The notes beneath the pieces were generated by a model. It had not been told where the DNA came from. It made no database searches and saw nothing but the letters and a program-made list of their open reading frames with translations. A program made the position numbers and the translations under genes. This document shows positions 35,054-39,480 of a DNA stretch of 39,480 nucleotides, in pieces (the stretch's first letter is position 1; every line of letters begins with the position of its first letter). Source of the stretch: Actinomycetota bacterium (GTDB taxonomy: Bacteria > Actinomycetota > Thermoleophilia > Gaiellales > Gaiellaceae). The stretch is from contig PMZQ01000100.1 in NCBI GenBank assembly GCA_003170155.1, positions 1 through 39,480 of the forward strand, given 5' to 3'.

Positions 35054-35899
35054 CTACACGCCCGACGGGAATCCATGCTCACCCGAGTCTCGGTGGTGGT
35101 GGCCACGCTTGTGCGCGTGGCTGTGTAGGAGCTTGCCGTGACGATGCGTGTGCTCATGGACCAGGTTGGCGGAAAGGAGCAGCTCATAGTCGGCGAGGAT
35201 CTCGGCGGGCACGCCTGCGCCAAGGCTGCGGTGCTGCTCGGAGAGGACGAGGCAACGGTCGGCGATCGATTCCAGCTGATCGAGCTCGTGGGTGGCGAAT
35301 ACGATCGTCTTGCCTGCCTCTCCGAGTTCGATCATCAGCTCGAGCAACCAGTGACGGCTGCGTGGATCGAGGCCGGCAGTGGGCTCGTCGAAGAGCAAGA
35401 GTTCTGGGTTCATCGCCAGCACCGAGGCGATCGCGACCCGCTTCTTCTGTCCCGCGGAGAGCTGGTAGGGCGCCCGTTCGATCAGATCCCCGATCTCGAG
35501 CATCGCCGTCACATCGCTGATCCGGGTTTCGATCTCATCCGGCTCGAGGCCGAGTTGTAGTGGCCCGAACGCGATCTCTTCGCGCACCGTCGGCGAGAAG
35601 ACCTGCGCATCGGTGTTCTGGAAAACGAAGCCCACCCGCGAGCGAAAGGCGGCCGAGAACTGCTCGTCCTCGAGTTTCTCCGCGTTCACCTCCTCGCCGA
35701 AAGCCAGGTAGCTACCCCGGTCGGCGAAGAGCAACCCAGCCAGGATCTTGAGCAGCGTCGATTTGCCACAGCCGTTCGCGCCCAGAAGCGCCAGCCGCTG
35801 GCCGCGGGCGACCTCGAGTGAGACTTCCTCCAGCGCGGGAAAGCGCTCGAGGTAGGAGTAGGACAGGCCGTTCGCGACTAGTAGAGGCTCAGAGCTCAT
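35054..35899 (-). CDS. cbiO: Cobalt/nickel ECF transporter ATPase CbiO with His-rich tail
   Basis: This 281-aa energy-coupling-factor ATPase shows Walker A GANGCGKST (40-48), the CbiO-type QNTDAQVFSPTVREEIAFGP segment, signature LSAGQKKR, Walker B LLLFDEPTAGLD and ATHE. Residues after about 245 form a tail with eleven histidines in about 30 residues, a likely Ni/Co-binding stretch. I take the ATG at 35899 since it fits the family N-terminus; a longer frame adds 24 unrelated residues. It is the last transporter gene, 370 bases behind cbiQ. Confidence 0.9.
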   Translation of the reverse strand: MSSEPLLVANGLSYSYLERFPALEEVSLEVARGQRLALLGANGCGKSTLLKILAGLLFADRGSYLAFGEEVNAEKLEDEQFSAAFRSRVGFVFQNTDAQVFSPTVREEIAFGPLQLGLEPDEIETRISDVTAMLEIGDLIERAPYQLSAGQKKRVAIASVLAMNPELLLFDEPTAGLDPRSRHWLLELMIELGEAGKTIVFATHELDQLESIADRCLVLSEQHRSLGAGVPAEILADYELLLSANLVHEHTHRHGKLLHSHAHKRGHHHRDSGEHGFPSGV

Positions 35900-36271
35900 C
35901 TCGGAACGACATTCCCCTGCCCGTTCAATTGACGCGTTCGCGCGAGGGCACTTCTTTCCGCCGCCCGCCACCGAAGAGCGTCAAGCGGAATGAAGACCCG
36001 TCGACTGGGTGCGATCGGTGAGTGCGAGGCAAGGACGCAGTGTCGCGTTCGTAGCCGGAAGCTACGGGCGCGACCGAGGACGCAGTATCGCGCCGCCGAG
36101 CGCGGCCAGGCGATGGAGTGCTTCGTTTCGTTTGGCGCTCCAACAACCCACCCGCGGGGTCGTGAAACGGTACCGAGAAACTGCCCGGCGAATGTGCCGT
36201 TTCTGTGCCGAGCTAGCAGCACGCCATCGAGCTCGGCCAAGCGGCGTTGCGCTTCATCCCGGCGCGAGCTC
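35900..36271. other. Intergenic spacer with repeats between cbiQ and cbiO
   Basis: This 370-base gap breaks an otherwise compact operon. I see no gene. It holds the repeat-hairpin element at 36031-36092. A purine-rich stretch near 35975-36000 has no evident role. The gap may be an insertion, because cbiQ and cbiO usually abut. Confidence 0.45.
36031..36092. repeat. Direct repeats flanking a hairpin
   Basis: AAGGACGCAGTGTCGCG (36031-36047) and GAGGACGCAGTATCGCG (36076-36092) match at 15 of 17 positions. Between them lies CGTAGC-CGGAA-GCTACG (36050-36066), a perfect six-base stem. The design resembles a small palindromic repeat element of the REP/MITE class. Nothing nearby identifies a mobilising enzyme. 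Confidence 0.5.
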
Positions 36272-37198
36272 TCAAAGTCCGAGCGCACGATCCCCTCCGA
36301 TCGTGAGCAGTGCCAGAGACAGGCATGCTGCGAGCCAGACGCCGTCCGCGATGCACAGGGAAGAACGTTCGAGCAATCGCGCCTCGCCGCGATAGCCCCG
36401 CGCCAGCATCGCCTGATGAATCTCCTCGCTGAGTGCGTGCGCCTTGCCGAAGAGCGCACCGCCCGAAAAGCCGGCGACCACCCGCGCCCCGCGCCCGTCC
36501 TTCCTGCTCGAGACGGTCCGCGCTCTGCGCGCCGTGATCATCTCGGAGACGGCGTCGAGCAACACGAACAGGTAGCGATAGGCCATTCCGAGCACCAGCA
36601 CGATCAGCCGCGGCGCCAGCAGCGCACGTAGCGCCGAGAGCAGCCGCGGCCAGGAGGTCGTCAGCGTCAAGAGCACCACCAGCGAGATCGACGTCGCCAC
36701 CCGGCTGACGATCAGTCCCATCGAGGTCAAGCCCTGACGGGTCAGCCCGACCTCGTGCCCGAACCAGTGCCCAAGCGGCAGCACCACCTCGCCCGGTGTG
36801 ACGAAGCTGAACATCGCCGGCGCCACGATCACGCCGGTGAAAAGTGGGATGAAGAGCCAGACCCGCTTGACGAACCAGCGAAGCCCGATCCGCGACGCGG
36901 CGGCCAGAACGAGAGTGAGCCCGTAGAGCCCGAGCAGCACCGGGATGTCCCGCACCAACCCGGCCGCGAGCAGAAGAGCGAGAACCCCGAGCAGCTTGGC
37001 CCTCGCGTCGAGGCGCTGCAGTAGACCTCTCCGCGCGGCGATCTCCTCGCTCAGCAGAGCCTGCCTGGCCACCCCCGCGAAACCGTCGATCGTCTTCTCG
37101 ATCGCGCTGCCCCGGCGGCGCCGGCCGCTGCAGCCGATCGGGAAGGCGCCGGTCTCGCTTTCGAGTAGCCAGGAAGGCGTGGACGCGTTTCGAATCAC
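36272..37198 (-). CDS. cbiQ: Cobalt/nickel ECF transporter transmembrane protein CbiQ
   Basis: This 308-aa T-component has about five to six helices (LLGVLALLLAAGL, PVLLGLYGLTLVLAA and others) and the CbiQ Ala-Arg-Gly motifs that couple to the ATPases: MITARRARTVSSR and MLARGYRGEARLL. It is the scaffold between CbiM and CbiO. It starts at a GTG that overlaps the cbiM stop (GTGA). The N-terminal 60 residues are longer than usual (SAIEKTIDGFAGVARQ is the family start region). Confidence 0.9.
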   Translation of the reverse strand: MIRNASTPSWLLESETGAFPIGCSGRRRRGSAIEKTIDGFAGVARQALLSEEIAARRGLLQRLDARAKLLGVLALLLAAGLVRDIPVLLGLYGLTLVLAAASRIGLRWFVKRVWLFIPLFTGVIVAPAMFSFVTPGEVVLPLGHWFGHEVGLTRQGLTSMGLIVSRVATSISLVVLLTLTTSWPRLLSALRALLAPRLIVLVLGMAYRYLFVLLDAVSEMITARRARTVSSRKDGRGARVVAGFSGGALFGKAHALSEEIHQAMLARGYRGEARLLERSSLCIADGVWLAACLSLALLTIGGDRALGL

Positions 37199-38262
37199 AC
37201 CGAGCCCGTCTGCACGTTCGGACGCCGCCGCGCAATCAGCCGGACGCCGGCGATGAAGAGAAAGATCACAGCTCCGACCGCCATCGCACCGGCGATCGCC
37301 GAGACGACGTAACCGAGATTCGCGTGCCTGCCAGACGAGAAGCCGTAATCGCCGAGCAGCTTGTGCTTCCAGAAGCCGTTGTAGTGCTGGAGCCCGCTGG
37401 GAATCGCACTCAGACCGTACGTGTGCAGGTCGAGGCCGCCCGGCGCATCCTCGCCGTAGGCGCCACCGGGCGCGAGCAGCCCAAGCGGCGAGAGAACGAT
37501 CATGGTCGCGATCCCGATCAGAGCCCAGCGCAGCGCCGGCCGCCCGCTTTGCGGAGCCAGCTCCGCATCCGTGTCGACGATGCCTGCGTGGTTGATCCGA
37601 AGCAGCGGCAGATTCGCCCGTTGCAGATAGGCGACGATGCCGACGGTCAGAATGAACTCGGCGGCACCGGCGGCGGTGAGGTGCGCGAGCGCCATCGCGG
37701 GAATCGTCTGCGCAAGGTGGAAGGGCGCATAGAGCGGTGTCCCGTTCGCCGTGTGGAAGAGAACCGGCTGCAGTCCAAGCTCGGTCGCGGCGCAGAAAGC
37801 TGCCACGTTCAACCCGACGTAGCCACCGATGCCCGCCGCGAGCGCCCGCCGCCTAGATGCCAGCGATGTGTTCCGGGTCAATAGTCGGTAGACGCCGTAG
37901 CCGGCGAACGGCATCACGAAGGCCATGTTGAAGGTGTTGGCACCAAGCGCGAGCACGCCGCCGTCGCCGAAGAAGAGAGCCTGGATCACGAGCGCGACGC
38001 TGACGCAAACCACGGCCGCCCAGGGCCCGAGTAAGACGGCTATCAGCACCGCCCCGACCGCGTGCGCCGTCGTGCCGCCCGGAATCGGCACGTTGAACAT
38101 CATCACCAGGAAGCTGTAGGCGGCACCGAGCGCCAGTAGCGGCGCGTGACGATCCTTGACGACCTTTTTCGCCCGGCTGCAGGCGATTCCGATCACGGGC
38201 ACCATCGCGGCGCCGGCAACCGCGCAGGTGGCCGGGCTCAGGTAGCCGTCAGGGATGTGCAT
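37195..38262 (-). CDS. cbiM: Cobalt/nickel ECF substrate-binding protein CbiM fused to PDGLE/CbiN-like domain
   Basis: This 355-aa membrane protein begins MHIPDGYL, the hallmark in which the amino terminus and His2 bind the metal. About seven helices of CbiM follow (FNVPIPGGTTAHAVGA, then NTFNMAFVMPFAGYG, and others). The last 110 residues carry a helix, an external loop and a second helix of the PDGLE/CbiN type, so the M and N parts are fused. The ATG at 38262 overlaps the end of the Fur-family gene by 14 bases. Codons upstream of this ATG are shadow sequence. Confidence 0.92.
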   Translation of the reverse strand: MHIPDGYLSPATCAVAGAAMVPVIGIACSRAKKVVKDRHAPLLALGAAYSFLVMMFNVPIPGGTTAHAVGAVLIAVLLGPWAAVVCVSVALVIQALFFGDGGVLALGANTFNMAFVMPFAGYGVYRLLTRNTSLASRRRALAAGIGGYVGLNVAAFCAATELGLQPVLFHTANGTPLYAPFHLAQTIPAMALAHLTAAGAAEFILTVGIVAYLQRANLPLLRINHAGIVDTDAELAPQSGRPALRWALIGIATMIVLSPLGLLAPGGAYGEDAPGGLDLHTYGLSAIPSGLQHYNGFWKHKLLGDYGFSSGRHANLGYVVSAIAGAMAVGAVIFLFIAGVRLIARRRPNVQTGSV

Positions 38263-38740
38263 TTGGGCCGCCCTCGTGATCGCGACTCTCCTCGATACAG
38301 TCGGGACAGAGCCCGACGAGTGGGAAATGGGTGAAGCGAGCCTCGAAGCCGAAGCGCTCGAGCACCTGCCCGCGGATCTCGTCCAGCTCCTCCTTCGCAA
38401 CCGAGCGAACGGCGTGGCAAGACTCGCAGACGAGGTACTCGTGCTCGGGCGCAGCCAGCGCATACAGCCCCGGCCCGTGGCCGAGATGGACGTGACGGAC
38501 GAGCCCGACTTCCTCCAGCGTCTCCAGGTTGCGGTAGACCGAGGCGAGGTCGGAACGCGGCAGCCGGCCTTCCAGTCCCTCCGCTAGGCGCTCGGCCGAA
38601 AGCGGACCCTCGGCGCCGAAGAGCGCCTCGAGCACGAGCCGCCGGGCGGCGGAGGCGCGGAGACCGCGCTCGCGCAGAGCTTCGACGGCCGCCTCGACGC
38701 TGTCGGCGACGAGCGCCGGACTACGGTGGGTTGTGGTCAA
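38249..38740 (-). CDS. Fur-family metal regulator (Nur/Zur-like)
   Basis: This 163-aa protein has an N-terminal winged helix (VEALRERGLRASAARRLVLEALF and ASVYRNLETLEEVGLVRH) and a C-terminal dimer domain with HVHLGHGP, HEYLVCESC and GLCPDC; the two CxxC pairs hold structural zinc. The start is a TTG at 38740 with AGGAGG five bases upstream; frames extending further overlap the divergent gene. It leads into cbiM, so it most likely senses nickel or cobalt and represses the transporter. A palindrome resembling the Nur box lies 30 bases upstream. Confidence 0.9.
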   Translation of the reverse strand: MTTTHRSPALVADSVEAAVEALRERGLRASAARRLVLEALFGAEGPLSAERLAEGLEGRLPRSDLASVYRNLETLEEVGLVRHVHLGHGPGLYALAAPEHEYLVCESCHAVRSVAKEELDEIRGQVLERFGFEARFTHFPLVGLCPDCIEESRDHEGGPNAHP

Positions 38741-38769
38741 CTCCGCCTCCTCTCGAGATAGCGACGTAA

Positions 38770-38786
38770 TTGCGAGTCGTTCGCAA
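38770..38786. promoter_or_regulatory. Nur-like operator TTGCGA-N5-TCGCAA
   Basis: A perfect six-base inverted repeat with five-base spacer lies in the 117-base gap between the Fur-family gene and the divergent secreted-protein gene. The Streptomyces nickel regulator Nur uses TTGCAA-N5-TTGCAA boxes, which differ at one base per arm. It could control both genes. Confidence 0.6.
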
Positions 38787-38857
38787 AAACTAGCGATTCG
38801 CGCCTCGGGTCGCGCCGGTACCAAAGCGGCTGTCTCGGTTGCTAGGCTCGCCGCCTC

Positions 38858-39480
38858 ATGGCACGGTCTCGGATCTCCTTCCTCCTCGCTCTGGTAGGCG
38901 CACTGGTGCTCGTTGCGACCTGCCCGGCCGCGACCTCGCTCGGGCGCGGCGCCTCCTATCTGCTCGCTCGTCAGCAATCCGACGGAGGCTTCGCCGAGTC
39001 TGGTGCCTCCTCGAGCGCCGGGCTGACAGCCTGGGCCGTGCTCGGGCTCGCGGCGAGCGGCCGGGCTCCCGCTCGAGCGCAGGCGGCCGCCGACTACATG
39101 GCTCAGGCCCCGGCACCCCAGGCGACCGACCTCGAGTTACGCCTGCTCGCACAGAGGGCGCTCGGACAGGACACGTCCAAACTCGCCGATGCGATCGAGC
39201 AACTGAAGCACGCAAGCGGCCGCATCGGCCCGGCGCTCAACTCGACCTACTGGGGCGCGATCGCGCTCGAGGCGGCCGGCCGCAACCCCGGCATCGCGAC
39301 GGTTCGCTACCTCCTGCGCGCCCAGCGAGGGAACGGCGGCTGGTCCTGGAGCCCGAACGCAGCCCCCGACGCCGGCGACACAGCCGCGGCGATCCAGGCC
39401 CTGCGCACAGCCGGCGCCAGCGCCCGCTCGGCTCCGATCAAGCGAGCCGTCCGCTTCCTCCGCCGCTGCCAGAACCGAGA
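38858..39480 (+). CDS. Secreted terpenoid-cyclase-like repeat protein (partial, runs off the end)
   Basis: An open frame from the ATG at 38858 continues past the window end (207 codons seen). The first 28 residues are a signal peptide (MARSRISFLLALVGALVLVA and on to about residue 27). The rest holds prenyltransferase/squalene-oxidase type repeats: YLLARQQSDGGFAESG, AGLTAWAVLGLAA, YWGAIALEAA, YLLRAQRGNGGWSWSP and DTAAAIQALRTAG. Such alpha/alpha-barrel repeats also form the main domain of cobalamin-binding intrinsic-factor-like proteins. It diverges from the metal-regulator gene and shares its operator. A terpenoid enzyme is less likely because of the export signal. Confidence 0.8.
   Translation, partial: MARSRISFLLALVGALVLVATCPAATSLGRGASYLLARQQSDGGFAESGASSSAGLTAWAVLGLAASGRAPARAQAAADYMAQAPAPQATDLELRLLAQRALGQDTSKLADAIEQLKHASGRIGPALNSTYWGAIALEAAGRNPGIATVRYLLRAQRGNGGWSWSPNAAPDAGDTAAAIQALRTAGASARSAPIKRAVRFLRRCQNR

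Follow-up and report, generated by a model that had tools for sequence, protein, structure and literature searches.

Herein, our comparative analysis indicates that, in this uncultured soil actinobacterium, the palindrome at positions 38770-38786 is most likely the operator at which the adjacent Nur-like repressor controls a nickel-uptake operon that includes its own gene, a reading to which we assign a probability of about 0.85. The site (TTGCGAGTCGTTCGCAA) reads TTGCGA-GTCGT-TCGCAA, a 6-5-6 dyad. It lies near one end of the window (the whole 39,480-bp stretch of DNA analyzed), which carries the following features.

35054..35899, minus strand: CbiO/NikO, ECF ATPase (ABC_tran, PF00005)
36272..37198, minus strand: CbiQ/NikQ, ECF T-component (TIGR02454, over cut-off)
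37195..38262, minus strand: NikM-type ECF S-component (CbiM/NikM) with a C-terminal PDGLE-like (NikN-like) extension (PF01891)
38249..38740, minus strand: gene of the predicted Nur-like Fur-family repressor (P0001), TTG start, 163 aa (PF01475, tree, 3EYY match)
38746..38751, minus strand: ribosome-binding site AGGAGG of the regulator gene (sequence)
38770..38786, no strand assigned: predicted operator, 6-5-6 dyad TTGCGA-GTCGT-TCGCAA (exact match, congener conservation, same box in other genera)
38787..38792, minus strand: possible -10 element TAGTTT, adjoining the box on its upstream side (no variation in TAGTTTTTGCGA across six genomes)

The original prediction described a TTGCGA-N5-TCGCAA palindrome with the arm and spacer lengths of the Nur box, placed before a Fur-family gene that leads a CbiM-type transporter. 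Both points were confirmed: the palindrome is present at 38770-38786, the TTG start of the Fur-family gene on the minus strand is 29 bp away, and the end of this gene overlaps CbiM/NikM. The exact palindrome occurs as a single copy in the whole 2.11-Mb genome. Across 40 other relatives, it was found twice in total (L002 and L003), or about 0.05 copies per genome, a number that fits the background level. The orthologous promoter was recovered in five congeners, giving a six-genome comparison. Invariant bases made up 11 of 12 arm positions, 0 of 5 spacer positions, and 49 of 105 positions in the remaining non-coding region (Fisher p = 0.003 for arms against the rest and p = 0.001 for arms against the spacer). 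The outermost base of the right arm is A, G or C among the six genomes. The perfect palindrome is thus a peculiarity of the source genome, and the conserved core is TTGCGA-N5-TCGCA. On the gene strand, all six genomes read TAGTTTTTGCGA-N5-TCGCA(A/G/C)TTAC. Conserved arms around a free spacer suggest a protein-binding dyad and are the pattern expected of a dimeric repressor. Spacing alone is weak evidence for Nur, because other Fur-family boxes share a similar dyad geometry. The possible -10 element TAGTTT matches TANNNT, and no clear -35 was found upstream of it. GGAGG ahead of the conserved TTG start is also present in the congeners. On the other side of the box, a divergent gene (38858-39480) encodes a secreted prenyltransferase-toroid protein, the family being taken from the homologue in G003. 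The gene starts 71 bp from the box, keeps this position in the congeners, and may share the operator.

The regulator belongs to the Fur family (PF01475, 60.9 bits against a cut-off of 23.1), and among PDB sequences it matches 3EYY, the Nur of Streptomyces coelicolor, best. Its AlphaFold model (pLDDT 91.8) has the Fur fold, with 3EYY among the top structural matches. A tree was built from Nur and 62 sequences from the class, together with Zur, PerR, Fur and same-order paralogues. A branch with support 99/88 sets Nur and the 62 class sequences apart from the rest. Residues H83, H85 and H138 of the regulator align with H70, H72 and H126 of Nur, which we take to be its nickel site; they are present in 61/62, 61/62 and 59/62 of the class orthologues, and the full set occurs in none of the Zur, PerR and Fur references. 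Both CxxC pairs are kept in the regulator.

The second metal site of Nur, the M-site, presumably consists of H33 and the HHHxH loop; the residue numbers for both Nur sites reportedly come from An et al. 2009. In the alignment, the four-histidine M-site has no match in the regulator clade, which has no His at the H33 equivalent and, in place of the HHHxH loop, mostly E/R-E-Y. The combination of kept nickel-site histidines and a missing M-site is common to about 60 orthologues in the class. Both sites are kept in Streptomyces Nur and mostly kept in other actinobacterial Nur-like proteins. Of the two metal sites present in its best-studied relative, the regulator thus seems to retain only one. 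We expect it to act as Nur does, but the absence of the M-site from the alignment places it as a variant of Nur and not as a standard Nur. A review assigns to Nur a four-histidine M-site plus a nickel site of three histidines, and cautions that the coordination at the latter may be a crystallisation artefact (PMC7055735). The retention of the nickel site in 59 of 62 proteins lacking the M-site argues that the site is real. We see an even chance that, in this class-wide Nur-type branch, the Fur-family M-site has been lost and nickel is sensed through the suspected-artefact histidine site alone. If so, the loss would be a natural experiment on which Nur site is the sensor, and it offers proteins in which the Nur nickel site stands without the second site.

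The same box was found in other genera of the class. The regulator was used to search 399 class genomes, and 58 loci were taken (470 kb; 55 non-redundant loci). With up to one mismatch, TTGCRA-N5-TYGCAA gave 14 matches in the 470 kb, counting the window site and leaving out close congeners, and 13 of these immediately precede the regulator, nikM/cbiM, NiCoT or znuA. The reversed control pattern gave no matches in the same 470 kb. In the target regions, the best match had at most one mismatch in 13/55 loci and at most two in 27/55, against 0.075 and 1.6 expected from dinucleotide shuffles. Controls with wrong spacings or scrambled arms in these regions gave 0-1 loci with at most one mismatch and 1-4 loci with at most two. 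The box was not found with up to two mismatches in 28 of the 55 orthologous loci. Among the 55 loci, the regulator adjoins NikM/CbiM in 11, NiCoT in 20, ZnuA in 8 and at least one hyp gene in 16, and most of the remaining loci adjoin a TPR/NicO-type gene. L119, L123, L127, L146, L152, L172 and L174 have DUF4331, TPR and (where checked) NicO-type genes beside the Nur-like regulator. Unrelated transporter types under one box, with hyp genes adjoining, point to nickel. From these results, a nickel regulon and the operator consensus TTGCRA-N5-TYGCAA can be predicted for a large group of soil actinobacteria, most of them uncultured.

The transporter is NikM-like. The genes run in the order regulator, NikM/CbiM, CbiQ and CbiO, with overlapping ends among the first three. 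The closest solved structure to the S-component is 4M58 (NikM) at 59% identity, with an E value of 2e-80 against 1.5e-14 for the cobalt CbiM 5X3X. Its C-terminal extension gave a weak match to PDGLE (E 1.4e-4; 22.1 bits, below the cut-off of 27), which we take to be a NikN-type domain, and a profile search found no match to CbiN in the extension. For CbiO/NikO, ECF ATPase and cbiO models scored best, below their own cut-offs. There is one CbiM per genome in the six genus genomes. 4M58 was deposited as CbiM and was identified as NikM, a nickel/cobalt transporter S-component (PMC5037267); CbiN is specific to cobalt systems and NikN to nickel systems (PMC2667541). Within the nikQ-nikO gap (window 35900-36271) is a dispersed ~140-bp repeat; further copies, 82-86% alike, occur at L077:5047-5197, L084:2539-2678 and L178:1575-1713. 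In G003, nikQ and nikO overlap.

The metal needs of the genus were judged on six genomes that are 77-93% complete; for genes absent in all six, an assembly gap is unlikely. The [NiFe]-hydrogenase large subunit is present in 6/6; in the genome read, its gene shares an operon with those for the small, flavin and iron-sulfur subunits and with hyp genes. Read by eye, the enzyme looks like group 3b. CbiC, a marker of corrin-ring synthesis, was found in none of the six genomes. Each carries one full-length cobalamin riboswitch, and one genome also has a partial match. In two genomes read, the riboswitch precedes a DUF4430-EcfT-EcfA-EcfS operon, presumably a B12 importer. In L077 from 6865 (G000:C83), the order is cobalamin riboswitch, two DUF4430-type secreted proteins, EcfT, a double ATPase and an S-component. 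An organism with putative B12 uptake and a nickel enzyme would need nickel more than free cobalt. Cobalt control, with the regulator sensing cobalt and the CbiM-type transporter supplying it, is an unlikely alternative. NCBIfam names the S-component cobalt transporter CbiM, and some members of the NiCoT and CbiM families carry cobalt, but the S-component is far nearer NikM, corrin-ring synthesis lacks its marker, B12-type uptake is riboswitch-led at another locus, and hyp genes stand beside the regulator in 16/55 loci. "Cobalt transporter CbiM" annotations in this group may be readable as nickel importers.

Zinc control, with the regulator as a second Zur, is less probable still. ZnuABC-like systems usually carry zinc or manganese, and such operons adjoin the Nur-like regulator in eight loci (L122, L124, L129, L131, L139, L142, L151 and L160), several of them with the box. 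These ZnuA loci are the main reservation to the nickel reading. HypF is also present in five of the eight, however, suggesting that these supposed zinc transporters carry nickel. The source genome encodes a second Fur-family protein (G000:C68), which is closest to Mycobacterium tuberculosis Zur (102.6 bits); a perfect palindrome of the Zur type, TGAGAATGATTCTCA, precedes the start of its gene (L043:1928-1942). By homology, this protein is clearly a Zur in its own right, with a canonical box of its own. The regulator itself has no HHHH loop of the Zur kind, and in the tree it sits with Nur.

Peroxide or iron control, with the regulator as PerR or Fur, is very improbable. The best NCBIfam model is PerR, below cut-off, and PerR is among the best structural matches, but the equivalents of H37 and H93, which we take to be the PerR metal-site histidines, are not conserved, the tree separates the regulator from both families, and its neighbours are nickel-type transporters. 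A chance palindrome without function is scarcely credible. When up to three mismatches are allowed, the window has 22 matches, about as many as shuffled sequence would give (22.2), and the exact site alone is unusual. Against chance, the arms of the site are conserved around a free spacer in six genomes, and the box is enriched more than 100-fold in other genera.

Nickel control, which the original prediction preferred to cobalt or B12 control, is the best-supported reading. It rests mainly on evidence that the original prediction lacked and that is stronger than box geometry: the Nur grouping, the nickel-site histidines, the NikM-like transporter, the [NiFe]-hydrogenase, the lack of a corrin-ring marker, a Zur with its own box for zinc, and the occurrence of the box before nickel-type transporters in many genera. 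The regulator is predicted to bind DNA in a metal-dependent manner, with nickel as the effector. When nickel is sufficient, the nickel-loaded dimer would bind TTGCGA-N5-TCGCAA. This sequence overlaps the presumed promoter, and binding would repress the regulator gene and the nikM(N)-nikQ-nikO genes downstream of it. Under nickel shortage, repression would be lifted and uptake would rise, and the imported nickel would probably serve the [NiFe]-hydrogenase.

The S. coelicolor Nur box is tTGCaa-N5-ttGCAA (PMC3919588). Our site shares its 6-5-6 dyad and TTGC/GCAA ends but has G as the fifth arm base (TTGCGA vs TTGCAA). The regulator resembles S. coelicolor Nur (3EYY) in its Fur fold, its tree branch, its equivalents of H70, H72, H75 and H126, and its link to nickel uptake genes. 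It differs in lacking the M-site histidines (H33 and the HHHxH loop), in adjoining NikMNQO where the S. coelicolor protein is linked to nikABCDE and sodF, and in heading its own predicted target operon. With the NikMNQO nickel ECF transporters (4M58; PMC5037267, PMC2667541), our system shares the M, Q and O subunits, the MHIPDG start and the 59% identity in M. Unlike them, its N-like domain, with the weak PDGLE match, is fused to M, and its operon starts with a Nur-like gene. As in E. coli NikR-nikABCDE, a nickel repressor gene would stand beside the uptake operon it controls, but the regulator family and operator are unrelated. Actinobacterial Zur shares the Fur family and a short dyad near the gene, whereas its box (TGAGAATGATTCTCA in the source genome), metal-site residues and branch are different.

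The regulon appears, from genome scans, to be this operon only. A degenerate scan of the six genus genomes found no second conserved box, the regulator site alone being common to all. The original prediction proposed a search for the same box before nickel enzymes, and such a box was not borne out: none was found with up to two mismatches in the hypF-hydB promoter region before the hydrogenase, and urease alpha is absent from the six genomes. With no other genus-wide site and none before the hydrogenase, the regulator looks like a dedicated operon repressor. Absence of the box elsewhere had been proposed as grounds for rejecting nickel control. Such absence holds within the source genome, and the box is present in other genera. 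Its absence elsewhere in the genome limits the regulon to this operon and does not refute nickel control. A conserved dyad between hypF and hydB, [AG]TGCGGGCTTTCCGCAA (L078:4795-4811), has three mismatches from the box and is not claimed as Nur-type; one of its spacer bases differs in G005. The same intergenic region (L078:4746-4761, G000:C17) also holds the palindrome AGCGTA-GATG-TACGCT, which is invariant in 6/6 genomes and is probably the site of another regulator.
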